Positions 9,397 through 25,844 of a stretch of 64,000 nucleotides of DNA are shown here, piece by piece. Origin of the DNA: Calothrix sp. PCC 7716. GTDB taxonomy: Bacteria; Cyanobacteriota; Cyanobacteriia; Cyanobacteriales; Nostocaceae. Made by a program: the position numbers and the translations under genes. The notes under the pieces were generated by a model, which was not told the origin of the DNA, searched no databases, and saw only the letters and a program-made list of their open reading frames with translations. How positions within the stretch are numbered: position 1 is the stretch's first letter; every line of letters begins with the position of its first letter. The stretch is from NCBI RefSeq assembly GCF_019977735.1, contig NZ_AP025018.1, positions 8,498,580 to 8,562,579 of the forward strand. The letters run 5' to 3'.

Positions 9397-9851
9397 AGCG
9401 AAAATCCTCTTCTTTGTTCGTGTGATTGAGTTTCAGCCATAATCGTGCTTCTTCCACTCACAAAGATTTACATATCCACATAAATCATCTTGAGTAGCGA
9501 TAAACTTGGTTTCCGTGTAGACACCTAGTTCTAAAACAAACTATTTCTCAGGGAAAGCTAGTTATGCACTATTCAAGAATTTGTTTTATCTATATATGTT
9601 GTTTCTCCCCACTCCTATAGTTGTTTTGGTCTATATCTATCTCCAGGGTTAGAGGAGAGATTTATGCACGAACTCCAAAAAGCCTAAAATATTTACATTT
9701 TGTTACAAAAAGGGTTTTAAATTAATTGTAGGTTGGTGTCGAAAAACAAGACCTTTAAAAATATTATCCTCACAAGTTCCTCAAATTATCTGCGTATAAA
9801 CAGAGTTGTAAAGCGGATGAGCGATTGTAAGTTAGTAATGGGGACTTCAAA
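9397..9851. other. Divergent intergenic region, sigma-like gene and nitroreductase
   Basis: No real gene seen. It holds the box A promoter near its right end. A seven-codon open frame at 9664-9687 preceded by GAGGAGAG is noted, but nothing supports translation. Confidence 0.4.
9768..9800 (+). promoter_or_regulatory. Box A: 11-bp-period direct repeat plus -10, before nitroreductase
   Basis: CCTCACAAGTTCCTCAAA at 9768-9785, nine bases, then TATAAA at 9795-9800. The nitroreductase start is 52 bases further on. One of seven boxes with identical geometry. Confidence 0.75.
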
Positions 9852-10886
9852 ATGTTTATGAAAACTGATATTTGGAATGTCCAAGAAACAGATTTTCCGG
9901 CAACTGGAACACCAGAGGAAAAACTCAAGTTTATTTTGAACTACGCAATATTGGCGCCTTCAAGTCACAATACCCAACCGTGGTACTTTAAAATTGATTC
10001 AGGCGCCATATATCTACTTGCTGACCACACTCGTGGTTTACCCGTTGCAGACCCAGATGGTCGGGAATTGATAATCAGTTGCGGAGCAGCGCTTTTTAAC
10101 TTGCGTATAGCCTTGCATCACTTTGGCTACACAGGTAAAATTAAGACTTTTCCTGACCCCGCAAATCCAGATTTGCTAGCTTGTATCGAATTGGGTCATT
10201 CATCAGGAGAAACTACTGACGGAAAGTTACTGTTCCAAGCAATTAAAAAAAGACATACAAACAGACACGATTATCAAGATTGGAATGTTCCAGAAACACT
10301 GCTTAAAACTTTGCAGAAAGATGCAATATCTGAAGGTGCTAATTTACAAATTGTCAAAGGTGACATTCTGCGCGCTTCCGTTACAGAATTAATAGCACAA
10401 GGCGACCACTTGCAAATGGCAGACCCAAATTTTCGTAACGAATTAGCAACTTGGGTGCGTCCCAGTACCAGCAAAAGTCATGATGGTCTTCCAATTTATA
10501 CTCATGGTATAGATGAACACTTTGAATTTGCTACGCCCTTGTTTGCTTTTGTCTTACGAACTCTGGATATGGGTTATTCAGTTGCAGAACGTAGTCGGAA
10601 ACTTTTAGAATGCTCACCTGCGATTGTAATTTTAACTACAGAATCTGATAAACCTGCCGATTGGCTAGCAGCTGGGCAAGCACTAGAACGGGTGTTATTA
10701 AGGGCACAAGTAGTTAAATTATTTGCATCTTTTTTGAATCAACCAATTCAAGTACCTGAATTAAGAAGTCAACTGAGTAAGCTTCTTGGTAATAAAGCCT
10801 ATCCACAAATTATGCTCCGTTTAGGGTTTGGGTTAGAAACGAAGCCAACACCAAGGCGAACAGTTGATGAGGTTGTATCTAATTGA
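9852..10886 (+). CDS. Acg-family FMN-binding nitroreductase-like protein
   Basis: 344 residues with the duplicated nitroreductase fold of the Acg family (mycobacterial Rv2032/Rv3131 type): an N-terminal LKFILNYAILAPSSHNTQPW motif, a LPVADPDGRELIISCGAALFNLR motif that forms part of the FMN pocket, KKRHTNRHDY in the centre and a GQALERVLLRAQ helix in the second half. Acg proteins bind or sequester FMN and are induced by hypoxia or nitric oxide in mycobacteria. A GGGG ribosome binding site lies seven bases before the ATG. A DUF6544-type gene follows 63 bases downstream, probably in the same transcript. Expression is probably driven from box A. Confidence 0.88.
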   Translation: MFMKTDIWNVQETDFPATGTPEEKLKFILNYAILAPSSHNTQPWYFKIDSGAIYLLADHTRGLPVADPDGRELIISCGAALFNLRIALHHFGYTGKIKTFPDPANPDLLACIELGHSSGETTDGKLLFQAIKKRHTNRHDYQDWNVPETLLKTLQKDAISEGANLQIVKGDILRASVTELIAQGDHLQMADPNFRNELATWVRPSTSKSHDGLPIYTHGIDEHFEFATPLFAFVLRTLDMGYSVAERSRKLLECSPAIVILTTESDKPADWLAAGQALERVLLRAQVVKLFASFLNQPIQVPELRSQLSKLLGNKAYPQIMLRLGFGLETKPTPRRTVDEVVSN

Positions 10887-10949
10887 AAAAATAAGCTTGG
10901 TTGGTAAGGCTAAATGCACGCAGAATATAAAAATAGAGGTATCAGAAAA

Positions 10950-11783
10950 ATGATAGCCAAAATTATACTTAGTATTGGTGTATTGTTAGCAAGCGCATTC
11001 CTCACTTTAGTTATTGTGCAAGTAAGGAACGACCAAGAAGTTAGTCGGATTTGGCAAGCACTTTCAACTTCACCTGACTCAAAAAATCATTTTACTAAAG
11101 AAATGGTTATAGAATTACCTGCTCCCGTACAGCGTTATTTTTTGCACTCCATAGCGCTCGGAACTCCTCTGGCTTCGGGAGTCAATCTAAAAATGAGTGG
11201 TAATTTTAGGCTTAGTCAAGACAAACCGTGGTTGCCAATGGTAGGTGAAGAAATTATTTCAGATAAAAAAGGATTTGTTTGGAAAGCAGCCATTGGTAGC
11301 CCTCTTTCACAAATGCGAGGAAGTGATTACTATATTAATGGTTTGGGTCGAATGCGGTTTTCGCTTTGGGGATTAGTTCCCTTGGTAAATGTCCAAAATC
11401 CTGATACTAACCGCTCTGCAATTGGACGATTAGCTGGAGAAATGGTATGGCTACCTTCTGGTTTACTACCAGCGCGCGGTGTAAGTTGGAAGGCAATTGA
11501 TGAGAACACTATCCAAGCTAGTTTAAAGATTGACGGTGAACCAGTAACGCTGACACTCTTTATAGACTCAAACGGTAAGCTGCTGAAGTTATCTTTCCCA
11601 CGTTGGGGAGAACACAAAGAAGATGGTACTTACACTTACATTCTCTTTGGTGGAGAAATTCAGCAAGAACAAACATTTGCAGGATATACAATTCCATCCC
11701 AGGTTAGTTTGGGCTGGTGGTTTGCTCCCGACCGTTACTCAGAGTTTTTCCGTGCCACAATTGAGCAAGCCAAGTTTAACTGA
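10950..11783 (+). CDS. Membrane-anchored DUF6544-like protein
   Basis: 277 residues from the ATG preceded by AGAGG; an earlier in-frame ATG at 10914 would add 12 residues. One N-terminal membrane helix (IILSIGVLLASAFLTLVIVQV) is followed by an extracytoplasmic domain with alternating strands and many aromatic residues (GMRFSLWGLVPLV-like and GWWFAPDRYSEFF stretches). The pattern resembles the DUF6544 family often found beside oxidoreductases. No enzymatic motif is evident. It follows the nitroreductase on the same strand and faces the OsmC gene, 16 bases away at the 3' ends. Confidence 0.7.
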   Translation: MIAKIILSIGVLLASAFLTLVIVQVRNDQEVSRIWQALSTSPDSKNHFTKEMVIELPAPVQRYFLHSIALGTPLASGVNLKMSGNFRLSQDKPWLPMVGEEIISDKKGFVWKAAIGSPLSQMRGSDYYINGLGRMRFSLWGLVPLVNVQNPDTNRSAIGRLAGEMVWLPSGLLPARGVSWKAIDENTIQASLKIDGEPVTLTLFIDSNGKLLKLSFPRWGEHKEDGTYTYILFGGEIQQEQTFAGYTIPSQVSLGWWFAPDRYSEFFRATIEQAKFN

Positions 11784-11799
11784 ACAATCTAATAACTTA

Positions 11800-12213
11800 T
11801 TATTTGACCAAGGTAGGAGCAGTGATAATATGGGTTGTTATTTGTGGTGAGTGCATTAAAGTATTATGAATTAAGCAATTTTCAATTGCTTGCTGTAAGC
11901 CAAGTTTATGCTTTGTTTCCAAAGAGCAAGGTAGGCTGACATCAACTTGGAAATTATCTAGACGCGCGACAGGTCTAATCGATTTATCAGCATTCACCGT
12001 AATGCTAAGACCGGAAGAATCAATGTTTCTGTTTTGCAAATATTTAACTGCATAGAAACCAATACAACTACCAAGTGATGCCAATAACCACTCTGATGGA
12101 GTCATTCCCTTATCTTCACCACCATTTTCTTCTGGTTGGTCGCCAATTATATAATGATTTCTAGCTGTCGCTTTGAACTGTAGTTGACCTTCATAATTAA
12201 TTTTAACTTGCAT
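11800..12213 (-). CDS. OsmC-family peroxidase
   Basis: 137 residues from an ATG at 12213 preceded by GGAGGG; the longer frame starts at a TTG that overlaps that site and is rejected. The OsmC/Ohr fold is clear: MTPSEWLLASLGSCIGFYAVKY contains the peroxidatic Cys50, and the second conserved cysteine is Cys113 in ENCLIHNTL. Such proteins detoxify organic peroxides using lipoyl or thiol donors. It is expressed from box B, 84 bases upstream, which gives it the same control signal as the nitroreductase operon. Confidence 0.88.
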   Translation of the reverse strand: MQVKINYEGQLQFKATARNHYIIGDQPEENGGEDKGMTPSEWLLASLGSCIGFYAVKYLQNRNIDSSGLSITVNADKSIRPVARLDNFQVDVSLPCSLETKHKLGLQQAIENCLIHNTLMHSPQITTHIITAPTLVK

Positions 12214-12296
12214 AAAACCCTCCAAATAATTATTAATGAAGGAAATCGCGCGTTGCAGGGATTATAGAGTATGAGCTTTACTTACCCTCACTTTGA

Positions 12297-12329
12297 GTTA
12301 TAGGCAAATATTTTGAGGAACTTGTGAGG
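12297..12329 (-). promoter_or_regulatory. Box B: direct repeat plus -10, before osmC
   Basis: On the minus strand CCTCACAAGTTCCTCAAA (12329-12312), nine bases, then TATAAC (12302-12297). The box is identical in sequence to box A and at the same distance from the -10. Confidence 0.75.
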
Positions 12330-12486
12330 AAAGTTCAATTCGGGGTAGAAAGATTGGTAACGGATGATGAACTACATCCGTTGCAAAGAAAGCTGAGATT
12401 GAAAAAGTATCAATTTATTGCAAAAATGTAACGTTGAGGGGTTTTTGAGGGAAAATATAATTATAATCAAGTAGCGAGTAAATATC

Positions 12487-13017
12487 ATGATTTACAACAA
12501 AATTTTGGTTGCTCTCGATAAATCTCCACAAACTTGTATTGTTTTTGAAGAAGCATTAGGAATGGCTCAGAAATACGGAAGCCAGTTAATGTTCTTTCAT
12601 TGCATCAATAGCAATAAACTAAATGAGCCGTTTTTATCTGTTGGCACTATTGGAGATGTTGATATGTACGGTGCTTTGCACAAACAGTACCAACAAAACT
12701 TACTCCACGAAATTCAACAAGTTGACATTTGGCTAGAAAGTTGCTGCCAGCAAGCCAATATCAAAAAAATTTCCGCACAATTTAAGCATGGATTTGGAGA
12801 AGCTGGTAAACAGATTTGCAGTTTAGCAGAGTCATGGGGTGCAGATTTAATTATATTAGGTCGCAGAGGGCACAGAGGGATTACAGAAATTTTGCTTGGT
12901 AGCGTCAGTAGTTATGTTCTTCATCACGCTCCCGCAAGCGTGTTAGTTGTACAAGAACAGATATTCACAAAACATAAAAAATTTGTGATGACAACATCAA
13001 CTCAAGCTAAAATGTGA
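12487..13017 (+). CDS. Universal stress protein (UspA family)
   Basis: 176 residues with a single Usp domain: KILVALDKSPQTCIVFEEAL at the N terminus and the ATP-binding motif GRRGHRGITEILLGSVS near residues 127-143. This is the ATP-binding class, which commonly dimerises and responds to energy or oxygen stress. Two overlapping TATAAT hexamers lie at 12456-12467. A weak, oppositely oriented pair of TTGAGG repeats, also 11 bp apart, sits at 12434-12450. It stands divergently from osmC. The C-terminal 20 residues are extra to the fold. Confidence 0.9.
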   Translation: MIYNKILVALDKSPQTCIVFEEALGMAQKYGSQLMFFHCINSNKLNEPFLSVGTIGDVDMYGALHKQYQQNLLHEIQQVDIWLESCCQQANIKKISAQFKHGFGEAGKQICSLAESWGADLIILGRRGHRGITEILLGSVSSYVLHHAPASVLVVQEQIFTKHKKFVMTTSTQAKM

Positions 13018-13026
13018 AGTTTTTAT

Positions 13027-13042
13027 AAGTTTACGTAAACTT
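13027..13042. other. Perfect 16-bp palindrome downstream of usp
   Basis: AAGTTTACGTAAACTT lies between the usp stop and the PEP-CTERM gene. With short flanking T and A runs it could be a weak terminator or an operator for the next gene; the sequence does not decide. Confidence 0.45.
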
Positions 13043-13099
13043 TATGTTAACAGTTGTTAAAAGTTAAAGGGGAAACGTGCTATTTCAAACAATACAGTT

Positions 13100-13693
13100 A
13101 TGAAACTCAACCAAAAGATAGCAGTAACAACTTCCGGAGTTGCTCTAGGTTTCGCTGCAATAAAAGTCAGCCCAGTATATGCTATTACTCGGACTGTTGA
13201 TTTTACCATTACTGACGTTACTCAAACCGCTGCCTACGGAGGGCCACCATTAGTTATAGAACAACCGCTTTCAGGTTTTTATAGTTTTGATGACCAATCA
13301 ACACCCGTTGTAGTTCCTCCTGCGTCGCTTAATCTCTCTTTGTTTCCTCTAACAGATTTTGGGTTTAATTTAAATGGGCGCCAGTTTTCGGTTGAAGACA
13401 TAAGCGGGTATGGTGGTACAGCAACAGACTTATTTATCAGCGGTTCTAAAGCGGAAGGCAATAATGTAGTAACAAATTTTTCTATTTTTGCCATTCCTAG
13501 ACCAGGTTTTGCTGAACCTCGTTTTAATGGTTTTGCCCAAAGAGGTTCTTTTTTATATTTTTTAGAAGGTAAACCTCAGCTTCAAGTACGAACTACACCT
13601 GTGTCGGTTCCGGAACCAGCAACTTTAGCTAGTATATGTGTCTTTGGACTTACTACTATATTTATTAAAAGAAAGGTTGCATCAAATAATTAA
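13100..13693 (+). CDS. PEP-CTERM sorting-signal protein
   Basis: 197 residues: a signal peptide (VTTSGVALGFAAIKVSPVYA), a beta-rich exported domain, and a C-terminal PEP-CTERM tripartite signal (VPEPATLASICVFG, hydrophobic span, then KRK). Such proteins are exported and processed by an exosortase, usually to the cell surface or exopolysaccharide. Its stop codon overlaps the ATG of the glycosyltransferase gene by one base, so the two are translationally coupled. This fits the usual link between PEP-CTERM proteins and surface glycans. The exported domain itself is not recognised. Confidence 0.88.
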   Translation: MKLNQKIAVTTSGVALGFAAIKVSPVYAITRTVDFTITDVTQTAAYGGPPLVIEQPLSGFYSFDDQSTPVVVPPASLNLSLFPLTDFGFNLNGRQFSVEDISGYGGTATDLFISGSKAEGNNVVTNFSIFAIPRPGFAEPRFNGFAQRGSFLYFLEGKPQLQVRTTPVSVPEPATLASICVFGLTTIFIKRKVASNN

Positions 13694-14733
13694 TGAAAGT
13701 CCTATTTGGCTGGGAACTAGGAGGAGGACAAGGGCACATTCAACGTCTTGTCGTGCTGGCAAGGGAACTTGAAATCTATGGAGTCGAGCCAGTCTTTGCG
13801 CTCAAATCGTACAATATTAAAGCGACAAGTTTTCCGTGGCAGATAGTCTTTGCTCCTCGCTTACCCTTTACTGGCAGGTCAGAATCTTACACGTTTGCCG
13901 ACATTTTAGAAACATTTGGTTTTGGTAATTATAATTTACTAAAATCGCATATTTTAGCATGGCAAGCGATTATAAAAGAGGTGAAGCCAAGTTTAATTAT
14001 TACTGACCATGCTCCTGGATTAGTAATAGCAGCAAAAAATATTGTGCCCACAATTGTTACAGGAGATGCTTTTACAGTACCGCCACCAGTTGAGATTTTT
14101 CCAAACCTAAGAATTCCGGCGCCACTCGAATCACAACAGCGTCAAGAGCAAGTTAGTAATACAGTTAAGCAAATTCTTCAATATTCGGCGCCTTTAGGAC
14201 AAATTCTTAATGGTGACACTAGTTTTATTTTTGGTATCCCTGAACTAGACCCGTATCAACATTTACGAAGTCTGAACCAATATTTGAGTGTACACGTTAC
14301 ACCTATTCCAAACAATTTATACAAAAGTGATGGTCATGCTTGGGCTTATTTGTACGATGACTATTCACACCGCAGTTTAGTTTTGAATACTCTGAAACCA
14401 CAATGCGATTTTCAACCTTTAACAAAAGTACTAGCTGGGAAATCCCTTGCAATTCATCATGGAAGTTCAACAACTGCTATTACTTGTTTACTAGCGGGTA
14501 TTCCTCAATTACTACTTCCCAAACACTTAGAACACCAACTTAATGCGGTTTCACTATCTGGGTTAGGGGTAGCGAAGACAATTAACAATCCAACATGGGA
14601 AACTTTAGTAGCGAAGAGAGCGCAAGCTTACTTACTTGTAGAAAACGCTTTGCTCCAAGCTGAAAAACTTGCACATTGGAATCAAAACTTTATATCCGTT
14701 TTTGTCAAAGCTTGTCTGAAATTTTTGAAATAA
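13693..14733 (+). CDS. GT-B fold glycosyltransferase (UGT/MGT-like)
   Basis: 346 residues. The N-terminal Rossmann domain begins VLFGWELGGGQGHIQRLVVLARELE, with a glycine-rich loop and HIQR as in macrolide and UDP-GlcNAc-type transferases. The C-terminal domain carries the donor-site signature IHHGSSTTAITCLLAGIPQLLLP followed by EHQLNA, the counterpart of the HGGxGTxxEALxxGVPxLxxPxxxDQ motif. It probably glycosylates a lipid or surface component. It is coupled to the PEP-CTERM gene by a one-base overlap. Confidence 0.8.
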   Translation: MKVLFGWELGGGQGHIQRLVVLARELEIYGVEPVFALKSYNIKATSFPWQIVFAPRLPFTGRSESYTFADILETFGFGNYNLLKSHILAWQAIIKEVKPSLIITDHAPGLVIAAKNIVPTIVTGDAFTVPPPVEIFPNLRIPAPLESQQRQEQVSNTVKQILQYSAPLGQILNGDTSFIFGIPELDPYQHLRSLNQYLSVHVTPIPNNLYKSDGHAWAYLYDDYSHRSLVLNTLKPQCDFQPLTKVLAGKSLAIHHGSSTTAITCLLAGIPQLLLPKHLEHQLNAVSLSGLGVAKTINNPTWETLVAKRAQAYLLVENALLQAEKLAHWNQNFISVFVKACLKFLK

Positions 14734-14738
14734 CAGTT

Positions 14739-14819
14739 CATCGTTTGTATGTGGATGGTATTGTTGGAAGCCAAACATGGCAAAAGTTAGCAGAGCTTGC
14801 AACTGAACACCATTATTAA
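14739..14819 (+). pseudogene. C-terminal remnant of a peptidoglycan-binding (PG_binding_1) gene
   Basis: Directly after the glycosyltransferase stop, a short frame reads LYVDGIVGSQTWQKLAEL and then stops. This matches the last part of the PG_binding_1 domain and resembles VTDGIVGAKTWAKLGDRL of the intact small gene at 22719-22976. No start codon or N-terminal half is seen, so it is a truncated remnant. Confidence 0.6.
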
Positions 14820-14890
14820 ATTAGAATGAAACTAACGGAATTCTCTGCTTTACGAGCAAATATCACCGCCATTTTACTAACAGGTTGGTA

Positions 14891-15142
14891 TCATTCATCG
14901 TTAATAAGCGTAAGTACTTTTGGCTGGAAACGCTTGACCTCAACAGAACTGATTTCGGCTCCTTCTTGAGCGATATCTTCAATGTATCCAAATTGGGATA
15001 CTTTTGCAGCCGATTCAGTTATGAAAGGACCAAAATAGTAAGTGCAATGAGGATTATTAGTAACTACCTCTAGCCACCATGCTAATCTCAATTGTTCTAA
15101 TAAAGATACAGTAATGTTTTCAGCAGTTTCTAAAAGCTTCAT
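14891..15142 (-). CDS. DUF1816-family protein
   Basis: 83 residues from an ATG with GGAG seven bases upstream; the longer frame adds only five residues. The cyanobacterial DUF1816 pattern is complete: LAWWLEVVTNNPHCTYYFGPF, then GYIEDIAQEGAEISSVEVKR and PKVLTL. Soluble, function unknown; the compact fold resembles phycobilisome linker-associated CpcD-like modules in size, but no functional claim is made. It is transcribed toward the glycosyltransferase gene and is not linked to its upstream hydrolase neighbour (61-bp gap) by any visible signal. Confidence 0.85.
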   Translation of the reverse strand: MKLLETAENITVSLLEQLRLAWWLEVVTNNPHCTYYFGPFITESAAKVSQFGYIEDIAQEGAEISSVEVKRFQPKVLTLINDE

Positions 15143-15203: not shown

Positions 15204-15917
15204 TTAGACTAATGATAGCGTTTGCAAATAAGTTTGGTTTGAGTTTGCTAATTGTAAGTGATGCTTAAACCATTGATTTGCTAATCGCGCGGCTTCTTCT
15301 AATGTTCCAGGTTCTTCAAACTTGTGGGATGCATTTGGGATAACTTCAAGCCGTTTATCATAGGCTGAAATTTGTAACAGTGCATCTTCATTCATGGCAA
15401 TAGTTGGGTAATCTTCGCCACCTACAATCAGTAATGTAGGCGCCTGCAAATACGTAAGGTCAGAACCGATTAAGTATGTATAGGCACTACGTGCGACAAC
15501 CGAGCAAACTTTCGTTCGTTGTGCTGCTGCTAGTAAAACCGCTCCGCCTAGGGCACTGGCGCCAAAGTAACCTATTTTAAGATTAAAAGTCATCGAATTT
15601 TCCGCCAGCCAATCAGTTATGCCTACAAGTCGCGTTGCTAGATGTAGGATATTATAGCGAAAATGTTTGCTCCGTTGGTCGAGTCGGTCTTCTTCTTGGG
15701 TTAGCAAATGGATTAATATTGTTGCCCAACCAGCTTGCCGTAAGAGATGAGCAAGATAACGGAGTCGATGTTCGTGCTTAATACTACTTTTGGCGCTTGG
15801 AATTACAACTATTCCCTGTGCGTCTTCAGGAATTACTAACTCGCCTTCTAGTTTGACTTGACCTAACTGGACAGTGATGATTTGCTCTTCTACTTCAAAT
15901 GCTTGCTTTTTATACAC
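15204..15917 (-). CDS. Dienelactone-hydrolase-type alpha/beta hydrolase
   Basis: 237 residues of the alpha/beta hydrolase fold. The nucleophile elbow is GASALGG (Ser in the third place), the acid is in GGEDYPTIAMNE and the histidine in NASHKFEEPG. In many bacteria this domain is fused to or adjoins a phosphoribosyltransferase domain; here it stands alone. A cytoplasmic esterase/hydrolase of unknown substrate is likely. Its promoter is box C, and the divergent DUF2949 gene has box D 79 bases beyond. Confidence 0.82.
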   Translation of the reverse strand: MYKKQAFEVEEQIITVQLGQVKLEGELVIPEDAQGIVVIPSAKSSIKHEHRLRYLAHLLRQAGWATILIHLLTQEEDRLDQRSKHFRYNILHLATRLVGITDWLAENSMTFNLKIGYFGASALGGAVLLAAAQRTKVCSVVARSAYTYLIGSDLTYLQAPTLLIVGGEDYPTIAMNEDALLQISAYDKRLEVIPNASHKFEEPGTLEEAARLANQWFKHHLQLANSNQTYLQTLSLV

Positions 15918-16008: not shown

Positions 16009-16041
16009 AGCCTAAACAACAAAATTGAGGAACTTGTGAAG
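16009..16041 (-). promoter_or_regulatory. Box C: direct repeat plus weak -10, before alpha/beta hydrolase
   Basis: On the minus strand CTTCACAAGTTCCTCAAT (16041-16024), nine bases, then TAGGCT (16014-16009). One mismatch in the first repeat and the poorest -10 of the set. Confidence 0.65.
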
Positions 16042-16119
16042 ATAATTTGCTATTACAACGCACGGATTTTATAAATGATGTGGGGATTACTGTATTTAAT
16101 TTGTAATAAAATTGACAAT

Positions 16120-16152
16120 CCTCACAACTTCCTCAAACTTTTCACATAATCT
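16120..16152 (+). promoter_or_regulatory. Box D: direct repeat plus -10, before DUF2949 gene
   Basis: CCTCACAACTTCCTCAAA (16120-16137), nine bases, then TAATCT (16147-16152). The next ATG with a ribosome binding site is 32 bases on. Confidence 0.75.
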
Positions 16153-16183
16153 GACAATACAGCATTCAATGAGGGCTAGTAAC

Positions 16184-16378
16184 ATGGAAACTACTAGAAT
16201 GATTGAGTTGATCGGCTTTTTGCAGAAAGACCTGGCAATTCCAGCATCGGATTTGCAATTGGCATTACGGCACCCAGAGCAAACCCTTAGTTCCTTACCA
16301 ATGATTTTATGGCAGTATGGTTTGGTAACTTTAAGTCAATTAGACCAAATTTTTGACTGGTTGCAGAGGAGCTTTTGA
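16184..16378 (+). CDS. DUF2949-family small protein
   Basis: 64 residues from an ATG preceded by GAGGG; the longer frame from 16112 would start inside box D and is rejected. The sequence follows the DUF2949 pattern: MIELIGFLQKDLAIPASDLQ, then SSLPMILWQYGLVTLSQLDQ and FDWL. A small helical cyanobacterial protein of unknown function. The CrtI-like gene follows 37 bases downstream and probably shares the transcript. Confidence 0.85.
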   Translation: METTRMIELIGFLQKDLAIPASDLQLALRHPEQTLSSLPMILWQYGLVTLSQLDQIFDWLQRSF

Positions 16379-16415: not shown

Positions 16416-17960
16416 ATGAAAAGTTCCTCAACCGACATCATTATTATTGGTGCAGGCATTGCTGGACTGGCAGCAGGTTGCTATGCCCAAATGAATGGTT
16501 ATCGTACCCAAATTTTTGAGATGCACAACTTGCCTGGTGGTTTATGTACCGCATGGAAGCGCAAAGGTTATGTATTTGATGGCTGTATTCACTATCTATT
16601 TGGCTCTGGAAAAAACCAGCCGTTTTATGAAATGTGGGAGGAACTAGGTGCAGTTCAGGGTCGGCAGTTTGTCCATCACGATGAGTTTATGCGAATTGTG
16701 GCGCCGGATGGCAAAACTCTAATTGTCTATAGTGATCCCGACCGACTCGAACGGCATATGTTAAGTTTCTCACCGAGTGACAAAAGGCTGATAAAGGAGT
16801 TTTGTGCGGGTATCTGGGATTTTACCGACTTTGATATGTCCTTACTCCAGCAAAAGCCAAAAGTTTTGATGAATTCTGTTGACTGGGTTCGTTTGAGTTG
16901 GAAAATGCTACCGTTTATTGGATTACTCAATAAATGGGGAAAAATCTCGGCATCTGAATTTGGCAACCACTTCCAAGACCCCTTTTTGCGTCGTGCAGTC
17001 CCACAAATGTTTGCTTGGAAAGACATTCCGATGATGGTCGGTATGTCGCTGTTAGCGTATACATTTAACAAAAACGCTGGGTTTCCAGTAGGCGCCTCAC
17101 TAGAATTTGCGCGCGCTATTGAAAAGCGCTATTTAGATAATGGTGGTGAAATTCATTATTGTTCCCAAGTTGAGCGCGTTCTTGTGGAAAACGACCAGGC
17201 TGTGGGAGTGCGGTTGTATAGCAATGAAGAATATTATGCTGACCGTATCATTTCTGCTTGTGACGGGCGCGGTACTATTTTTGACTTGCTAGGAGGTAAG
17301 TATCTCAATCGCCAAATAAAAAAACTCTATGATGGTCATCTACCGTTACACTCACAACTTCAGGTTTCTCTTGGCTTAAATCGCGATTTATCTTCTAAAC
17401 CTCACTGGGTTACTTACTTGTTAGAGCAACCAATAGTCATTGCTGGCGAGGAACGTTACGAAATTGGTGTCAAGCACTATTGCTTCGATCCTTCCCTAGC
17501 TCCTGCAGGTAAATCAGTAGTTATCGTGATGCTGAATACACCCTACGATTACTGGCAGCGCATTTATGGACGGTCTATATATGATGCTGAACAAATACAA
17601 GAATCGCATATTCTCATCGATCAATTGGAAAAATTTTACCCTGGTATTAAGGCTGACATTGAATTTATCGATGTGGCTACTCCCCTTAGTTATGAACGCT
17701 ACACTGGTAATTGGCAAGGTTCAAACTGTGGCTGGTTGTTAACAAAAGAGACAATGTTTCAGATGGTTGCTGGTATAGACAAGACGCTGCCAGGTTTGGA
17801 TAATTTTTATATGATTGGGCAATGGGTTGAGCCTGGTGGTAGTGTGCCAGTAGTTGCAATGTCGGGACGTAATATAATTCAGCAAATTTGCCATGAGGAC
17901 AAAAAGGTATTTATAACTACAACTCTTAATTCTAAAATTCTGAAGTCAAAAGCAATATAG
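16416..17960 (+). CDS. FAD-dependent phytoene-desaturase-like oxidoreductase (CrtI/CrtISO type)
   Basis: 514 residues. The N terminus has the FAD-binding dinucleotide motif IIIGAGIAGLAAGCYAQMNG and the flavin-linked amine oxidase extension GGLCTAWKRKGYVFDGCIHY. The C terminus carries GLDNFYMIGQWVEPGGSVPV, the usual closing FAD motif. Relatives include carotenoid desaturases and isomerases, but also retinol-saturase-like enzymes; a substrate is not readable. It is cotranscribed with DUF2949 from box D, so it is probably a stress-induced enzyme and not part of housekeeping carotenoid synthesis. Confidence 0.82.
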   Translation: MKSSSTDIIIIGAGIAGLAAGCYAQMNGYRTQIFEMHNLPGGLCTAWKRKGYVFDGCIHYLFGSGKNQPFYEMWEELGAVQGRQFVHHDEFMRIVAPDGKTLIVYSDPDRLERHMLSFSPSDKRLIKEFCAGIWDFTDFDMSLLQQKPKVLMNSVDWVRLSWKMLPFIGLLNKWGKISASEFGNHFQDPFLRRAVPQMFAWKDIPMMVGMSLLAYTFNKNAGFPVGASLEFARAIEKRYLDNGGEIHYCSQVERVLVENDQAVGVRLYSNEEYYADRIISACDGRGTIFDLLGGKYLNRQIKKLYDGHLPLHSQLQVSLGLNRDLSSKPHWVTYLLEQPIVIAGEERYEIGVKHYCFDPSLAPAGKSVVIVMLNTPYDYWQRIYGRSIYDAEQIQESHILIDQLEKFYPGIKADIEFIDVATPLSYERYTGNWQGSNCGWLLTKETMFQMVAGIDKTLPGLDNFYMIGQWVEPGGSVPVVAMSGRNIIQQICHEDKKVFITTTLNSKILKSKAI

Positions 17961-18805: not shown

Positions 18806-18829
18806 GGCTAAAAATGATGAATTTCAGAA

Positions 18830-20242
18830 TTATCGAAGTTTAATTTCACTACCATCATGAATCTGCTCGCTAGGATGCAGAATAACTACTTCTCCTTCTT
18901 TCAATCCTCGACGAATTTCTGCTTCAAAATCGCTGCGTTGTCCAACTTGAAGAAAGCGCCGAACTGCTTTACCATCTTGAACTACAAACGTACACCATGA
19001 TTGACCACAGCGAAACAGCGAACTTAATGGCGCCTTTAATACACTTTTCCCATCCCAAATTATAATTTTTACATCAACACGGTAAGCATCACCAAGAGAC
19101 TTAGCTGTATCAACAAAATCACCAATTACGTTGACACGCTGTTCTTCCACCCCCAAGGCAGAAACTTTGGTAAATGCAGAAGGTTCTATCCGTCTAACTT
19201 TTGCTTTAATTGCTTGAATATCTGCTCCTTGGTCAATTAATATAGTGTCTCCGATTTGAATTTTGGTTGCATCACTCGAAAGTACATCAATAACTAGCTC
19301 TAGTTGCGAGATATTACCTACTTCGAGTAAGGGTGTACCTGATGTAACGAACTGGGCACTTTCTTTTTGCACTCGCAGTACTTGGCCACTTACAGGTGAG
19401 TAAATATTAGTACGTGCGGCTTCATCTCTCAACTTTGAAAGTTCTGCTTCAACGCTGGCGATACGAGCATCATAGACTTTAAGTAAATAATCAGGGTCTT
19501 TTTGCTCTTGTTTTAAAACTAAAAGCGTCGCACGTGCAACTTCAACCTCATTGGCAGATGCTTTTGCTGCAAGCTTTACAGTTTCTAGTTCTTTAGCTTT
19601 AGTTATTTGATTAAGTTCTGCAACTTCCCTATCTTGACGGGGAATAGCACCAGATGTCTGTAACTGCTGGGCACGCTGAGTATCTCGTTGCGCTTGTTTC
19701 AATGCAGCTTGTGCTTGTACAACTCTTGCCTCTGCTTGTTGCTGTGTTGCAAGTGCTGCTTGGATACGTTTTTGTGCTTGTTCGAGGTTGGCTGGCTTTG
19801 GGCGTTGCGTTGCTACTCCTTGACGTTGCGCGCGCCATTCTGCCAATCTTCCTAAAGCTTCTTTCACTTCGGAAGTCAGAGGAAGTGGGTCGATACGTGC
19901 GACTACTACTCCTTGTTCAACTTTATCGCCTTCATCCAATTCTATTCGTGCGAGACGACCATCGACAGGCGCCGAAATTGTATAACGATTACGCACTCGT
20001 GTTTTACCTTCAGCATTGACGTTAACCTGCAATTCACCGCGACTAAGGCGCCTGGTATCTACAGAAATAGGAGCAGGGCGGAAAGCTTGTACAATTAAGA
20101 TAACACTAGCAGCAGCAATAACAAAATAAATAAACAGTTTTGGCGATATTTTAGGTAAACGTTTCCTTAGTCGTTTGGTTTCCGAAATTGGTTCATTCTC
20201 GTTCGGTTGTTCTTTTAACCACCTGGAAGGTAAAAGTTTCAT
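18830..20242 (-). CDS. HlyD-family periplasmic adaptor (membrane fusion protein)
   Basis: 470 residues: one N-terminal membrane helix (FIYFVIAAASVILIVQAF), a beta-barrel and lipoyl half (YTISAPVDGRLARIELDEGDKVEQG), a long coiled-coil hairpin (about residues 130-270, rich in Ala, Gln, Glu and Lys), and the second half (TNIYSPVSGQVLRVQKES). The C-terminal barrel (VLKAPLSSLFRCGQSWCTFVVQDG) completes the fold. It would link an inner-membrane ABC permease to the outer envelope. The FtsX-type permease lies directly upstream but the adaptor has its own promoter, box E, in the 94-base gap. Confidence 0.88.
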   Translation of the reverse strand: MKLLPSRWLKEQPNENEPISETKRLRKRLPKISPKLFIYFVIAAASVILIVQAFRPAPISVDTRRLSRGELQVNVNAEGKTRVRNRYTISAPVDGRLARIELDEGDKVEQGVVVARIDPLPLTSEVKEALGRLAEWRAQRQGVATQRPKPANLEQAQKRIQAALATQQQAEARVVQAQAALKQAQRDTQRAQQLQTSGAIPRQDREVAELNQITKAKELETVKLAAKASANEVEVARATLLVLKQEQKDPDYLLKVYDARIASVEAELSKLRDEAARTNIYSPVSGQVLRVQKESAQFVTSGTPLLEVGNISQLELVIDVLSSDATKIQIGDTILIDQGADIQAIKAKVRRIEPSAFTKVSALGVEEQRVNVIGDFVDTAKSLGDAYRVDVKIIIWDGKSVLKAPLSSLFRCGQSWCTFVVQDGKAVRRFLQVGQRSDFEAEIRRGLKEGEVVILHPSEQIHDGSEIKLR

Positions 20243-20299
20243 GTTAAGTTGTTTGTATATAAATTTACCTAGATGCTTAAATTTTGGCTATATATATTA

Positions 20300-20332
20300 A
20301 GATTAAGCAGTAAAATTGAGGAAGTTGTGAGG
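20300..20332 (-). promoter_or_regulatory. Box E: direct repeat plus -10, before hlyD-like gene
   Basis: On the minus strand CCTCACAACTTCCTCAAT (20332-20315), nine bases, then TAATCT (20305-20300). It starts five bases beyond the stop of the permease gene and would drive the adaptor separately. Confidence 0.75.
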
Positions 20333-20336
20333 ATGT

Positions 20337-22703
20337 TTATTCTCTCATTTTTAACACAGCAATTAAATCTAGGTTTTTCAAATGGCGCCGGACTATTAAC
20401 CCAGAGATAATTGCAGCAATTGTTACCACCACAAATGCGAAAGCATAAGTTGCTTTAGTTACAACCAAGGGGATACGGTAAAGTTCTGAGTTGTAAGTTA
20501 GAGACATCAACGCACAAAAACCAAACCCAATTGCAAATCCCAAAGGTATTGCTAAAAGCGTTAAAATAGCTTGTTCGCCTAAAAGAATTACAGAAATTTC
20601 TGTCTTGGTAAAACCGATAACACGCAAAGTTGCCAATTCTCGACTACGTTCTGATAAAGCGATACGCGCGGCGTTGTAAACTACCCCAAAGGCAATTACG
20701 CAAGCAAAGACAACTAATACAGTTGTAAAAACACCAAGAGTACCTGCAATTGTTTCTTGAAAGCGCTTTATTGCCATTTCCCGCACGGTAACACCAGCTA
20801 CCCCTGGTGTTCGTTTTAACACTTTATACAATCTATCAATTTGTAATGAGTCTGCTGCTAGATATGCTCCCGACACAGTTCTGCCTTCGCGCATCAATCG
20901 ATTTAATGCTTGTATATCCATGTATGCAGCGACACCAATTAATTCATCTACTAAACCAGCTACAGCGACTTTACGTGTAGGTCTTTCTGCTTCTAGTACT
21001 TCCACCGTTAAAGTATCACCAGGTTTAACACCTAAGATTTCTGCTAGTTTTGTTGTTAGTAGCACCCCATTGGATGGTAAATTCACAGGACGCAAATTTT
21101 TGTTTAACAGGCGCCTTAGTTCTGCATTTGGCTCTAAACCTGTCAGTGCAATTCGGTAGTCACGGTGTTCAAAACGTAATTTAGCTGGTACAGCGCGAAA
21201 TGTTTCGGTACGCAATACACCAGGTAGATGGGCAACTTCATACCGCACGCGCGAGGGTCGTGGTTCGTTGAACACAATCATCACGTCTTCGCGCTGAACG
21301 TTGCGAAATTGCACATCAATTATGTGTTGCATCGCATCGCTAAAATAACTACCAACAACTAATATCGCCACTGCAAGCGCTATTCCAATGATAGATAAAA
21401 ATGCTTGTACTGGCTTGCGTTCGAGGTTTCGCAGAATCATTCGACTTACAGGAGAAAGTAAAGATTCAAACCCCAGACGTTCGATAATTGTAGGATGAAA
21501 ATGTGCAGGTGGTTCGGGACGCATTGCTTCTGCTGGTGGTAGCGAAACTGCTTTTTTCACTGCCATAAAACCGCCAATCACTGCAGCACCACCACTAATT
21601 AAAATAGAGAGCATCACTAAACCAATTCCAGCTTCGTAGCGCAGTAAAGGAAACGAGAAAAACCTAGTGTAGTTTTGAGTAACAGCAGCACCAAACCAGA
21701 GTCCAAGGGCTGTACCGAATGCGGCGCCTGCCAATACAATAGCTAAAACAAACTTTAAATAATGTAAGCCAATATCTATATTACTGTACCCGAAAGCTTT
21801 GAGGACTGCTATTTGGTCGCGTTGGGTGGCGATAAGCCGAGAGAGCAAGATATGTAAGAGAAACGCAGCAATTCCAAGAAATATAGATGGTACTATTGTT
21901 GCAGTTCCTTGAAGTTGGCTAATTTCTTCCGAGAGAAAACGGTTAGAAAGTTGGTAAGAACGACCATAGGCGCCAAAACCACCATAATTTTCTAAAAGTT
22001 TATCTAGGCGAAATATTACATCAGCTTCAACAGCACCTCGCATACACGAAAGCGTCACATCATTAAATGCACCATCCATATTAAAAGCAGTACCTAAAGC
22101 TTCGCGTCCCATCCAAAAAACACCAAAACGTTCATTATCAGGGAAAACATCACCCGTTCCTTGAATAGCATAAACATACTCTGGTGAGAGCGCTATCCCC
22201 ACAATTCGCAGCTTTTGCCAACGTCCATTAATAATGGCGCCGACAGAATCACCTAAATCTAGTTTATGTACTTTAGCAAAGCTTTCACTAATTAATACTT
22301 CATCATCTTTATTTGGTTGAATATAACGCCCCCGCCGAATAAAAATATCATTAAGCATTGGCATCTGTAGCCGTGGTATAGATATTAACCGTCCAGTTGC
22401 AGGTTCACTCCGTCCAGGAATATCGAGACTTACATCCGCTACTACTCGTGTTTGTACCTGCGCGACTCCAGGGATATCTTGAATTTGTATTGCTAAAGAT
22501 TCTGGCGCGCGTTTAAGTTGGGCGAAAACCTGGGCAAAGCGGTACTGTTCGTAATAACTAGCTTGGGAAAGTTTTAATGAGTCATAAGCACTCAGCATTG
22601 AGACAAAACTGGCAATACCACAAGCGACAACTAGCGCTATGGCAATAATTTGACCTCGCTGATGCATTAAGTCACGGGTAAGCTTTATATCGAGCGGTTT
22701 CAT
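20337..22703 (-). CDS. ABC transporter permease with two FtsX domains
   Basis: 788 residues. A first membrane helix ([19 protein letters not shown]) is followed by a large periplasmic domain, a three-helix FtsX domain (about residues 270-390), a second helix near residue 440 with another periplasmic domain, and a final FtsX domain (about residues 665-780, [19 protein letters not shown]). This is the arrangement of MacB/LolCE-like or DUF214 permeases that export lipids, peptides or drugs by mechanotransmission. The partner ATPase is probably the gene at 24389-25153. It begins 15 bases after the small peptidoglycan-binding gene. Confidence 0.88.
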
Positions 22704-22718
22704 GTCATAAAACCAAAA

Positions 22719-22976
22719 CTAAGGATTTATAAGCCTGTCACCTAACTTAGCCCAAGTTTTGGCGCCGACTATTCCATCTGTCACCAAGGCAAAAGTAGTT
22801 TGGTATCTTTTTACTGCTTGCTCTGTTTTTGAACCAAACTTTCCGTCAACTCCACCTGTGCGATAGCTTTGAGATTCCAACAGTTCCTGTAAAAGTGTTA
22901 CAGCTCCACCTTCGGCGCCAATACGTAAAGTTGGTAATTCAGCTGATTTGGTTGCACCTTGTGTTTCAACTGGCAT
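22719..22976 (-). CDS. Small peptidoglycan-binding-domain protein
   Basis: 85 residues consisting of a single PG_binding_1 domain: LRIGAEGGAVTLLQELLES, then GGVDGKFGSKTEQAVKRYQ and TDGIVGAKTWAKLG. No signal peptide or membrane helix is visible, so how it reaches the wall is unclear unless it acts in the cytoplasm. An AGGA site lies nine bases before the ATG. It is the first gene of a transcript with the FtsX permease (15-base gap). A broken copy of the same domain lies at 14739-14819. Confidence 0.85.
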   Translation of the reverse strand: MPVETQGATKSAELPTLRIGAEGGAVTLLQELLESQSYRTGGVDGKFGSKTEQAVKRYQTTFALVTDGIVGAKTWAKLGDRLINP

Positions 22977-23473
22977 AATTTATTTCCTGTGATTATTAAT
23001 TTTGGCAGTATATATATTTACCATAGAGACTTAGAGTACACAGAGTGAAGTGTAACGGATAGTTAATTTTAGATAATAAATTTTTGTTTTTAACGAATTA
23101 CAAGCACCGTTACATCCGTTGCAAGCTAACCTCCCAAAATTAATGATATAGACGACTAGCAAAATTTACCTGCGGTACACTCCGTGAATGCGTCTCTACA
23201 TTATAGAATGTGTATCTTGAAGTTTACAGAAAGTAATTTTTAGTTGTATTAAGTTTGATTTCCTCACAAATTCCTCAAATTTGTTCCGTAATCTCAAAAT
23301 ATACTTAGCTAACGCAGCGCGTATTTGATTAAGGGGCTTTCAAAAAGATTTTGGAGATTTTTTGTATATGGAAGTCCCTAATAGGCGAGTCATAAAGCTA
23401 ACAACGAAGGCTGCATCAGTGGCATCTATTAATTTGTTTGAATTGCACACTATGGAAATATGAGAGAAGCAAT
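22977..23473. other. Intergenic region before the bactofilin-like gene
   Basis: No gene seen. It holds a copy of the TACATCCGTTGCAAG dispersed repeat (23111-23125), a GCGTCTCTAC fragment (about 23191), and box F. The leader from box F to the start codon is about 180 bases. Confidence 0.5.
23262..23294 (+). promoter_or_regulatory. Box F: direct repeat plus -10, before bactofilin-like gene
   Basis: CCTCACAAATTCCTCAAA (23262-23279), nine bases, then TAATCT (23289-23294). Same -10 as boxes D and E. Confidence 0.75.
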
Positions 23474-24358
23474 ATGAAAGGTATCAAAAGAAACTCATTG
23501 ATTCTGGTATTGGTATCGGTCTTAAGTGTAATTGTTTTTTCTTTAACAGCTCTAGCGCAAACTGAGATTAATATCAACAAGAATAATATTATTCGGATTG
23601 GCGGTGATGTGACAATTGCTCCTAAGCAAAAGGTTGAAAATGCCCACGCGATAGGTGGTGATGTGACAATTGGTGAAGGCGCAAGAGTTACCCAGACAGC
23701 AATTGCAGTTGATGGTGATGTAATTTTAGAAAAAGGCGCCCGTGTGGATGGCGATGTCTATGCTGTAGGTGGAGAAATTATTGCAGCGACCGGGGCTACG
23801 ATTGGTGGTGCTTCTGGTACAGCTTTAGACAGTGGCAGATGGGGAACATACGGTTACCGAAGGAGGGGAATTGGTAACTTTTTCCGTTATCTTTTCCATA
23901 CTGGATTTCACATTCTCAACGTCGCTGTAGTTACGATTATTGGTGTTATACTTCTACTTTGGCGCCCAAATTTTTTGCTTAACCTAGCAGCAAATGTTAG
24001 AGAATACCCGCTTCAATGTGGATTATGGGGTTTAGGCGGTTTGTTTGCGGTTATTTTGCTAATTATCTTCCTAGCAGTTAGTTTAGTTGGAATCCCGTTG
24101 TTACCCTTAGTTGGTTTGGCTGTCACTGTTGCATTCGTACTAGGAAATATGGGAATTGCTCTTTGGGTTGGGCAAAGAATTTTAACTAGGAGGGAACGAA
24201 CAACTATGCAAGAATTTCTGATTGGGATGCTAATTTTGGGTTTAATCGGTTTGATTCCCGTATTAGGAGGACTTATGTCGTCAGTAGTAAATATTTTTGG
24301 TAGTGGTGCATTAATTACGTGGTTGCTCAGTAAAAGACGAACAAGGTCTGTTATATAG
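23474..24358 (+). CDS. Polymer-forming (bactofilin-like) membrane protein
   Basis: 294 residues from the MKGIKRNS start, which has a GAGAGAAG site; the longer frame adds 12 residues. A signal or first membrane segment (LVLVSVLSVIVFSLTALAQ) precedes a short right-handed beta-helix repeat (IGGDVTI; AIGGDVTIGEGARV; AVDGDVILEKGARV; DGDVYAVGGE) of the bactofilin/polymer-forming type, then at least four membrane helices. Such proteins probably sense or scaffold at the envelope. Expression is probably from box F. The 3' end converges on the ABC ATPase gene. Confidence 0.8.
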   Translation: MKGIKRNSLILVLVSVLSVIVFSLTALAQTEININKNNIIRIGGDVTIAPKQKVENAHAIGGDVTIGEGARVTQTAIAVDGDVILEKGARVDGDVYAVGGEIIAATGATIGGASGTALDSGRWGTYGYRRRGIGNFFRYLFHTGFHILNVAVVTIIGVILLLWRPNFLLNLAANVREYPLQCGLWGLGGLFAVILLIIFLAVSLVGIPLLPLVGLAVTVAFVLGNMGIALWVGQRILTRRERTTMQEFLIGMLILGLIGLIPVLGGLMSSVVNIFGSGALITWLLSKRRTRSVI

Positions 24359-24388
24359 ATTGTATAGATGTTGTATAGATATTCAAAG

Positions 24389-25153
24389 TTACCATTCCAA
24401 CTGAGTCGGAGATAATTTTTCTTTATTCAGTTTTACGTTTGTAATCTGTCCACTTCGCATTGTAATTACCCTATCAGCCATTGCTGCAATACCAGCATTG
24501 TGGGTAATAACTACCGTTGTCGTCCCTAGTTCACGGTTTACTTGTTCCAAAGCTTCCAATACCAGTTTACCTGTTTGATAATCCAAGGCGCCTGTAGGTT
24601 CATCACATAATAACACTTCAGGACGCTTGGCAATCGCGCGGGCAATAGCGACTCGTTGTTGCTCACCTCCTGACATTTGTGCTGGAAAGTGATTGAGACG
24701 TTCTTTTAGCCCGACTAAGTTTAACGCATCTTCAGGACGTAAAGGATGGCGAGCAATTTCTGTCACAAGTGCCACATTTTCTTTAGCTGTTAAACTGGGA
24801 ATTAGGTTATAAAACTGAAAAATAAAACCAACACAATTGCGACGAAAACGAGTTAGTTCTGCATCACTCGCATTTTGCAAGTTATGTCCTCTGAAAAAGA
24901 CTTCACCACTAGTTGGTACATCTAAACCACCAAGTATGTTTAATAAGGTTGATTTTCCACTACCACTAGCTCCTAGTAATACTACTAACTCGCCTTCGTA
25001 AAGTTCGAGGTCTATTCCTAATAATGCATGAACTTCCACCTCACCCATGCGATAAACCTTAGTAATATTTTTGACATTAAATATGCCTAATAATGGCATA
25101 GTTGATTCACTGTAAATGACTGAGTGTTTCTCTGGTAGATTGTCCATAACCAT
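24389..25153 (-). CDS. ABC transporter ATP-binding protein (LolD/MacB type)
   Basis: About 254 residues from an ATG at 25153; the longer frame would overlap the preceding gene by 62 bases. Walker A is GASGSGKST, the Q loop is FIFQFYNL, the signature is MSGGEQQR, Walker B is [12 protein letters not shown] and the switch histidine is in VVITHN. The TGALDYQTG motif after Walker B is typical of the FtsX-permease class. It probably powers the permease encoded at 20337-22703, though it is in a separate transcript with the 79-residue protein just upstream (13-base gap). Confidence 0.9.
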
Positions 25154-25166
25154 ACCAAATAGCTGA

Positions 25167-25406
25167 TCAAAATTGTTTATTCTTACTCTTTGGAGAATAT
25201 ATAATGTTTCCGTAATCTCCAATAGCAATTACTTCATCCTCTTGGCGCCAATTGTTATTTTCTATAACATAGTCAAATTTTTCTTTTAATTCTTCGTCAG
25301 ACAAACGTTCTAAACTTTTCGCCCATGATAGCCCAAAATTAAAGGGAAGCGAAATAGTTGATTCTTGTTGTGTGGTAGTATTTACAAATTTGTAATATTG
25401 TCCCAT
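25167..25406 (-). CDS. Small conserved protein, MGQYYK type
   Basis: 79 residues starting MGQYYKFVN, a start shared by a widespread family of short bacterial and phage proteins. It contains [17 protein letters not shown] and [15 protein letters not shown]. No membrane helix or catalytic motif. It precedes the ABC ATPase gene by 13 bases and is presumably cotranscribed with it. Function unknown. Confidence 0.65.
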
Positions 25407-25492
25407 TGCTCGTTACCCAATTTTTGTAAATATTTGTAAACAATTAATTATTTTATAGAGATGCAATATTGTCTAGAGACGCGATATTCTTG

Positions 25493-25516
25493 AGAGACGC
25501 AATTAATTGCGTCTCT
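25493..25516. repeat. Perfect 24-bp palindrome (GAGACGC family)
   Basis: AGAGACGCAATT followed by its reverse complement. Related GAGACGCGATA and GCGTCTCTAC fragments occur at 25477, 23191 and 34880. This is a common dispersed cyanobacterial intergenic repeat. Confidence 0.75.
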
Positions 25517-25588
25517 ACAGTGTTACAAATAACACTATAATATTGTTAGCATTATTTGAAATATTTATCAATTGTTCAATTGCTTCAA

Positions 25589-25762
25589 TTAATAATGTTT
25601 TTTCTCACTTGGCTCACCTTCAAACGGTTGAACTCCTGTTTCAGGGAAATCATCGTCTCTAGGAGCAAAAATTCTAGACACTGCCCCAGAAAGGTAGCCA
25701 ATGATTTTTTGAGGTACTTCTTTTACTGCTTGTAAAATTCCATTTGTATTAGGATTCGCCAT
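25589..25762 (-). CDS. 57-residue protein of unknown function
   Basis: A short open frame from an ATG preceded by AAAGGGG to a TAA. The product begins MANPNTNGILQAVKEV, continues KIIGYLSGAVSRIFAPRDDD and ends in a charged tail. It is small, without cysteine or membrane helix; the central VPQKIIGYLSGAVSRIF stretch could form an amphipathic helix. It is directly downstream of box G (50 bases from its -10) and is the only gene that box can serve, which argues it is real. Function unknown. Confidence 0.7.
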   Translation of the reverse strand: MANPNTNGILQAVKEVPQKIIGYLSGAVSRIFAPRDDDFPETGVQPFEGEPSEKKHY

Positions 25763-25811
25763 ATTTAACCCCTTTGTTCGTGTGAGCTTGATTTAGATTA
25801 CTCCCTTTTTA

Positions 25812-25844
25812 AATTAGAACAAAAACTTGAGGAACTTGTGAAGA
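25812..25844 (-). promoter_or_regulatory. Box G: direct repeat plus -10, before 57-residue protein
   Basis: On the minus strand CTTCACAAGTTCCTCAAG (25844-25827), nine bases, then TAATTT (25817-25812). It lies in the gap after the response regulator gene. Confidence 0.7.

Follow-up and report, generated by a model that had tools for sequence, protein, structure and literature searches.

A conserved promoter element recurs seven times in a 64,000-nucleotide stretch of the Calothrix sp. PCC 7716 genome (the window; C1:8498580-8562579 of 12.37 Mb). The element, referred to here as the box, is an 18-bp direct repeat followed at nine bases by a -10 hexamer, and it is a real, phase-locked promoter element of the OmpR/PhoB type. 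What computation established is the existence and phase of the box, its position between genes, how it is distributed, that it is linked to and co-occurs with a response regulator, and the content of the genes behind it. We consider it likely that the box is the activator operator of a dedicated OmpR/PhoB-type phosphorelay regulator for dark or low-oxygen fermentation and dormancy, with binding, activation and signal predicted from sequence. The regulator gene beside the seventh box is a strong candidate for encoding this protein. The genes concerned probably constitute an apparently undescribed common gene set of many filamentous cyanobacteria that one signalling protein would switch on for dark or low-oxygen fermentation.

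A first-pass annotation of the window had described seven such boxes, each exactly nine bases from a -10-like hexamer, as an OmpR/PhoB-type activator box of an unnamed regulon. All seven were found (Table 1), TA stands exactly at that spacing in 7/7, and the hexamers are those described (i.e., TAATCT three times, and TATAAA, TATAAC, TAATTT and TAGGCT once each); the last box, placed at 25827-25844, lies one base away at 25826-25843. Each of the seven is located between adjoining long open reading frames (ORFs). In the window, seven matches to CCTCACAANTTCCTCAAA with up to three mismatches were found, compared to a mean of 0.20 and a maximum of 2 in 100 dinucleotide shuffles, none of which reached seven, and the requirement for TA at spacing nine kept 7/7 boxes with a shuffle mean of 0.02. 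Chance and a repeat element were rejected as explanations, as shuffles and reversed patterns give almost no matches and the sequence beyond the box and the -10 differs between most sites. Between positions 8000 and 28500 of the window, no Rfam RNA element was found at the gathering threshold.

Genome-wide, the core CYTCACAANTTCCTCAA has 20 exact sites, 17 of which fall within two clusters: seven in the window and 10 at C1:10040382-10068543 (the second cluster), in addition to single sites at 2075104, 2599328 and 9791956. TA is found at spacing nine in 20/20 of the exact sites and in four of the five sites with one mismatch, the fifth (locus L015) lying within a gene and lacking TA. At up to two mismatches there are 70 sites vs. 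21 for the reversed pattern, and thus the weaker sites include much background. Of the 24 host sites with TA (20 exact and four with one mismatch), 18 have an ORF start 15-115 bases past the -10, as judged by eye, and two more have one at 143 and 229 bases.

The same architecture was recovered from relatives across the order. A consensus built from 154 thinned boxes out of 185 distinct ones reads T-C-(C/T)-TCACAA-n-TT-CCTCAA-A-TT-n-TT, then TAnnnT, in which the 8-mer TCCTCA(C/A)A is repeated in the same direction with a period of 11 bp. TA is found at offset nine in 149 of the 154, with 48 at the runner-up offset, a figure biased by the partial selection of this set with a pattern containing the -10; less biased are the 20/20 given above and the figures for regulator-selected loci, in which 69/72 boxes at no more than one mismatch have TA at spacing nine and the reversed pattern has 0 matches. 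An equal density of boxes inside genes had been named as an outcome that would speak against a regulon. With related loci left unthinned, the box centre falls inside ORFs of at least 120 amino acids (aa) in 3/93 cases, while such ORFs cover 76% of the bases, so this test came out against refutation. Given that one phase to the -10 recurs across the order, and given the intergenic position and the OmpR-family linkage and co-occurrence described below, the assignment to an OmpR/PhoB-type box of an unnamed regulon is supported.

The exact box followed by a TANNNT -10 was found in 95/388 genomes of the order and its reversed pattern in 0/388. In a sample of the phylum, 29/386 genomes had the box, one of which (G594) was outside the order. 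When 12 named genomes picked for carrying the regulator were searched at up to one mismatch, 11 had the box, with 137 sites and 0 for the reversed pattern; the sites numbered, e.g., 22 in Dulcicalothrix desertica PCC 7102, 18 in Nostoc carneum NIES-2107, 17 in Calothrix sp. NIES-4105, 16 in Fischerella sp. PCC 9431 and 11 in Calothrix sp. PCC 7103. We also noticed variant forms. Boxes TTCATAATTTCCTCAT and TTCAGAATTTCCTCAT recur in G033, G281, G001 and G166 (family f2), whose genomes are without the helix signature introduced below, and form pairs spaced by about 320-420 bases in G033, G281 and G166; perhaps they are a diverged form of the same system. Lineage-specific forms are found in G086 (CTCATAA(G/C)TTCCTCAA, clustered on one contig) and G065 (CTCAAAATTTCCTCAA), in both of which the regulator helix is present.

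Each of the two host clusters holds an OmpR-family response regulator: that of the window adjoins box 7, and its paralogue is in the second cluster. The ORF of the former has 690 aa from a GTG, and a start at 27897 (MKILIVEDDG) is likely. Its receiver and winged helix were confirmed by Pfam (Response_reg and Trans_reg_C), and the solved structures related to it by sequence include PhoB and other winged-helix proteins, RpaA among them. Further analyses revealed that the regulator ORF is at least 990 aa long in 65 of the 75 named loci with a complete ORF. All four long forms scanned (L084, 1621 aa; L099, 1343 aa; L053, 1140 aa; L164, 1024 aa) contained HisKA, HATPase and PAS, and two of them GAF, while the proteins of the host and its nearest relatives, 666 aa long when counted from the start of the receiver, have no kinase part. 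A separate REC-GAF-PAS-kinase is encoded at L014:5670-7703, about 490 bases past the -10 of a one-mismatch box and with a 61-aa ORF between; as a guess, it might be the partner of the regulator. In G161, a regulator relative with a box nearby (L156:4055-6406, + strand) has a GGDEF domain instead of the kinase and the helix VRTQIKGLR.

Regulator and box were found to be linked from both directions. At no more than one mismatch, the 79 loci selected by the regulator protein alone (1.246 Mb) hold 72 boxes, at least one being present in 47/79 loci and in 46/79 when TA is required. Among the loci selected by the box, 11/70 have a relative of the regulator (own genome excluded), a count that is not blind, as some regions were selected after certain regulator positions were known; two of the 30 short loci from the order-wide box search have one. 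The 11 loci include one from the single box-bearing genome found outside the order, where a 73%-identical regulator has its ORF end about 0.5 kb before the box, in a region that had been selected before the place of the regulator was known.

The recognition helix follows the box as well. RTHIKGLR, preceded by AV, AI or VI, is found in 9/11 regulators of box-selected loci, across several families, while other paralogues mostly differ in the helix (e.g., TVTAHIKGLR and TVRSHIKGLR). The best overall regulator score per genome was discarded as a predictor of the box; since the scores of paralogues come close to it, it discriminated too little, and the helix signature (V/I)RTHIK(G/E)LR was used instead, searched as a loosely coded DNA pattern in the 388 genomes. 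It was found in 102/388 and its reversed control in 3/388. Both helix and box were present in 83 genomes, the box only in 12, the helix only in 19 and neither in 274 (Fisher p 3e-52, a value inflated by the kinship of genomes that are not independent and obtained with a pattern derived from box-linked proteins, some of them from genomes in the test set). In the same order, the counts were 39/4/10/96 by genus (p 6e-22) and 8/0/6/19 by family (p 2e-4). Three of the 12 genomes with the box only were checked, and all three have a regulator with VRTQIKGLR; G220, negative for both patterns, has a regulator with VRTHIKCLR and a one-mismatch box nearby. At up to two mismatches, 18/19 genomes with the helix only matched the box (71 sites vs. 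7 reversed, summed by hand), as did 10/19 hand-picked genomes lacking both (27 sites vs. 4 reversed, summed by hand), and thus the loose pattern also finds matches without the helix. Close matches (zero or one mismatch) were seen by eye in 12/19 of the former vs. 2/19 of the latter.

In the loci of relatives, an ORF of at least 40 aa starts within 300 bases of the -10 behind 148 of the 154 distinct boxes. The family scan covered 133 of their proteins, 14 of the 148 ORFs being left out as shorter than 60 aa and one for masked letters. Usp accounted for 32 of the 133, a count inflated by many regulator-selected loci that share one common Usp neighbor, followed by Hsp20 (13), pyruvate:ferredoxin oxidoreductase (PFOR; 7), carbohydrate phosphorylase (5), response regulators (3) and DUF2949 (3). 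HoxU and HoxE stand behind boxes and score above the NCBI equivalog cut-offs. A NuoF-family protein (L151) scores above one NuoF cut-off and is called HoxF-like because cyanobacterial NDH-1 is not known to include NuoF, and the L154 protein is HoxY-like by domain only. Three families are represented among the genomes with box-linked hydrogenase subunits (G359, G304 and G161). Single box genes encode a hydrogenase maturation protease, phosphoenolpyruvate (PEP) synthase, phosphofructokinase and protoglobin. In the host, reading of the translations by eye suggested two Usp proteins, Hsp20, PEP synthase, phosphofructokinase, a P-type ATPase and a 921-aa protein resembling an ADP-forming acyl-CoA synthetase. 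This content is as expected for dark, low-oxygen fermentation and dormancy, which is what points to the proposed signal.

These features suggest how the system may work. Given two head-to-tail copies with an 11-bp period, two winged-helix domains could be bound side by side on one face of the DNA. With the element in the -35 place and the -10 fixed nine bases downstream, the regulator would most likely activate by contact with RNA polymerase, as PhoB does. The acting protein, of REC-winged helix-Hpt-REC arrangement, would be the product of the gene next to box 7, together with its paralogue of the second cluster; in many relatives, this polypeptide is a long one that runs on into PAS/GAF and a histidine kinase and may form a self-contained phosphorelay. 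A dark, low-oxygen or low-energy state would be the trigger, and the output would comprise glycogen breakdown, glycolysis, PFOR, the bidirectional hydrogenase and the Usp and Hsp20 stress proteins.

As to the element itself, two other readings were weighed. A promoter class of an alternative sigma factor would account for the strictly constant distance to the -10, but it seems highly improbable, given that an 18-bp direct repeat with an 11-bp period nine bases from the -10 would be an unusual -35 element, that the -10 is of the ordinary TAnnnT form in 109/154 thinned sites, and that presence of the box tracks an OmpR-type helix. A site over the -35 region would also be compatible with a repressor, but ACAANT, which occupies the -35 position inside the box, is unlike TTGACA, so the promoters look activator-dependent, and we regard an operator for a repressor as improbable. 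As to the binding protein, related regulators number at least 30 in the host at E ≤1e-30 (150/251 candidates scored) and at least 14-30 in each of eight genomes searched, so that another OmpR-family protein, either a paralogue or RpaA/RpaB, could bind the box while the linked regulator was merely co-inherited. The box-linked L149 regulator, which reads TVKAHIRSLR and is of the paralogue type, would fit this explanation, and its genome has a second regulator with AVRTHIKELR and no box nearby in the stretch examined. RpaA/RpaB, regarded as common to all cyanobacteria, cannot, however, explain an exact box absent in about three quarters of the order, and the shared helix of nine box-selected regulators from several families also argues for the linked protein. 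We therefore consider another binder unlikely.

Beyond the number of related host regulators and the L149 helix, other observations weigh against a dedicated regulator of low-oxygen genes acting through the box. No box with up to one mismatch was found in 32/79 regulator loci in the stretch examined, some of which are cut by contig ends; Tolypothrix campylonemoides VB511288 carries the regulator and has no box at the same threshold; the L156 regulator, from a box-selected locus, reads AVRTQIKGLR; and similar helices are found without a linked box in the stretch examined in L177 (AVRTHIKGIR) and L186 (TIRTHIKGLR). Four of the 24 host sites with TA (L009:10286, L010:9834, L012:5345 and L013:5457) have no convincing gene close behind. 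The reversed matches, the origin of the helix pattern and the kinship of the genomes, given above with the co-occurrence counts, belong here as well, as do the nitroreductase, OsmC, HlyD-like, P-type ATPase and small ORFs behind boxes, which do not point to oxygen. It is possible, although we hold it with some doubt, that regulon and regulator are as proposed and that the signal is general stress, dehydration, dark/energy charge or redox, fermentation genes being only part of the regulon: Usp and Hsp20 are the commonest targets (32/133 and 13/133), the OsmC and nitroreductase of the window fit general stress, and PAS and GAF domains name no ligand. HoxE, HoxU, the HoxF-like and HoxY-like proteins, the hydrogenase protease and PFOR in several families are, however, hard to explain except by low-oxygen fermentation. 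We give about an even chance to a more specific proposal, namely that the system is the cyanobacterial counterpart of DosR of Mycobacterium: an OmpR-type phosphorelay, often with its own kinase and found in much of the order, that would sense a dark/low-oxygen or low-energy state and, acting via one stereotyped promoter box, directly turn on glycogen use together with hydrogenase, PFOR and dormancy proteins.

Table 1. Boxes and associated genes in the window (positions in the window).
Feature	Sequence	Position	Strand	-10 hexamer	Gene faced or domains
Box 1	CCTCACAAGTTCCTCAAA	9768-9785	+	TATAAA, 9795-9800	nitroreductase ORF 9852-10886
Box 2	CCTCACAAGTTCCTCAAA	12312-12329	-	TATAAC, 12297-12302	OsmC-family gene, ORF 11800-12225
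Box 3	CTTCACAAGTTCCTCAAT	16024-16041	-	TAGGCT, 16009-16014	237-aa ORF 15204-15917
Box 4	CCTCACAACTTCCTCAAA	16120-16137	+	TAATCT, 16147-16152	DUF2949 gene, then 514-aa ORF 16416-17960
Box 5	CCTCACAACTTCCTCAAT	20315-20332	-	TAATCT, 20300-20305	470-aa ORF 18830-20242, HlyD-like by eye
Box 6	CCTCACAAATTCCTCAAA	23262-23279	+	TAATCT, 23289-23294	306-aa ORF 23438-24358, 143 bases on
Box 7	CTTCACAAGTTCCTCAAG	25826-25843	-	TAATTT, 25811-25816	57-aa ORF 25589-25762
57-aa ORF behind box 7		25589-25762	-		no Pfam match
Proposed regulator	EEAVRTHIKGLRQKLK (helix)	25900-27972	-		REC - OmpR-type winged helix - Hpt - REC - PAS_3 (Pfam)

Among the genes faced by the window boxes, the labels nitroreductase, OsmC and DUF2949 of the first-pass annotation are backed by Pfam (the first as TM1586_NiRdase/Nitroreductase), while the ORFs it had called a hydrolase and bactofilin-like (those of boxes 3 and 6) had no Pfam match at 1e-3. 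The DUF2949 ORF is listed as 16112-16378 from a TTG just ahead of box 4; an ATG after the box is the likely start. A near-identical 57-aa ORF is also found behind a box in Dulcicalothrix desertica PCC 7102 (L049). Elsewhere in the window (31098-37603), two asparagine-synthetase-type proteins and a pyridoxal phosphate-dependent decarboxylase, recognized by eye, possibly form a small biosynthetic cluster. At other host sites, the boxes at L010:9834 (-) and L009:10286 (-) have good -10s and may serve small RNAs or antisense transcripts, the latter box facing the second regulator gene at its 3' end. The box at C1:9791956 (L013:5457, +) has nearly the leader of the PEP synthase box at L010:15528 (+), but no PEP synthase gene follows it. 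A tandem row at L013:188-2704 (-) encodes six small proteins (115-143 aa) that resemble one another and are apparently exported. Behind a box in a relative, a psbA-like frame of 167 aa (L160:4227-4727, -) is shorter than full D1 and perhaps truncated or frameshifted.

Mat and bloom cyanobacteria meet anoxia at night. In the accessible parts of the literature, the explanation given for the induction of hydrogenase and fermentation genes comes from a single unicellular strain and invokes nucleoid proteins together with a sigma factor. In the parts available, a 2026 review of cyanobacterial redox signalling (PMC13421787) assigns low-oxygen, hox or nifJ control to CyAbrB proteins, SigE and ChlR; a response regulator with a box of this kind is not named there. 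The available part of a 2024 study on hox control in Synechocystis is consistent with this, the response regulator slr1214 appearing only among the induced genes (PMC11368403). A description of the box or regulator was not found in the open-access literature, searched by titles and the starts of abstracts; since subscription journals lay mostly outside this search, a description elsewhere is possible. Nor did a word search of open-access papers return a full 17-mer of the box among the matches listed, where a paper with the unbroken 17-mer, which brings at least three search words, would rank first. A specific box with a candidate regulator would be a directly testable switch for filamentous cyanobacteria. 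It predicts target genes genome by genome and would be of use in hydrogen production and in explaining survival in the dark.

Among known cyanobacterial systems, CyAbrB2/SigE of Synechocystis 6803 acts on the same fermentative genes, with hox and nifJ being induced under dark, microoxic conditions. Its components, however, are a sigma factor and a repressor associated with the nucleoid, and the available parts of either source describe no control of these genes by a response regulator with a direct-repeat box (PMC13421787, PMC11368403). ChlR is likewise a low-oxygen activator but, according to the part of the review at hand, belongs to the MarR family, binds the palindrome TTMCC-N3/4-GGWAA and acts on tetrapyrrole genes (PMC13421787).

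RpaA and RpaB are OmpR-family regulators, and HLR1, the site of RpaB, is also a direct repeat. Its half-sites are, however, TTACA with a 10-bp period, in contrast to the other bases and 11 bp of the box, and RpaA/RpaB are near-universal in cyanobacteria, whereas the box is found only in 95/388 genomes of the order. As in hybrid two-component systems, the long relatives combine sensor kinase, receivers and a DNA-binding domain in one polypeptide, but here the DNA-binding domain is of the OmpR type and lies close to the N terminus, with Hpt and receivers after it. The geometry is closest to the class II Pho box of Escherichia coli, with two 7-bp direct repeats, an 11-bp period, the -35 place and a -10 at a fixed distance, and PhoB, an OmpR/PhoB-family winged-helix protein, is among the best matches to solved structures. 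The half-sites CCTCACA/CCTCAAA are, however, not CTGTCAT, the targets are others, and the regulator has Hpt and additional receivers, often together with a kinase. In content, the system resembles DosR, whose low-oxygen-induced genes include Usp, alpha-crystallin Hsp20, nitroreductase, a CBS protein and phosphofructokinase: Usp, Hsp20 and anaerobic metabolism genes stand here under one box. DosR, however, is of the NarL family with a palindromic site, as opposed to Trans_reg_C and a direct repeat, and the targets here include hydrogenase subunits and PFOR. The box system thus joins a Pho-box-like geometry to a DosR-like content and, on the features tested, is a member of neither.

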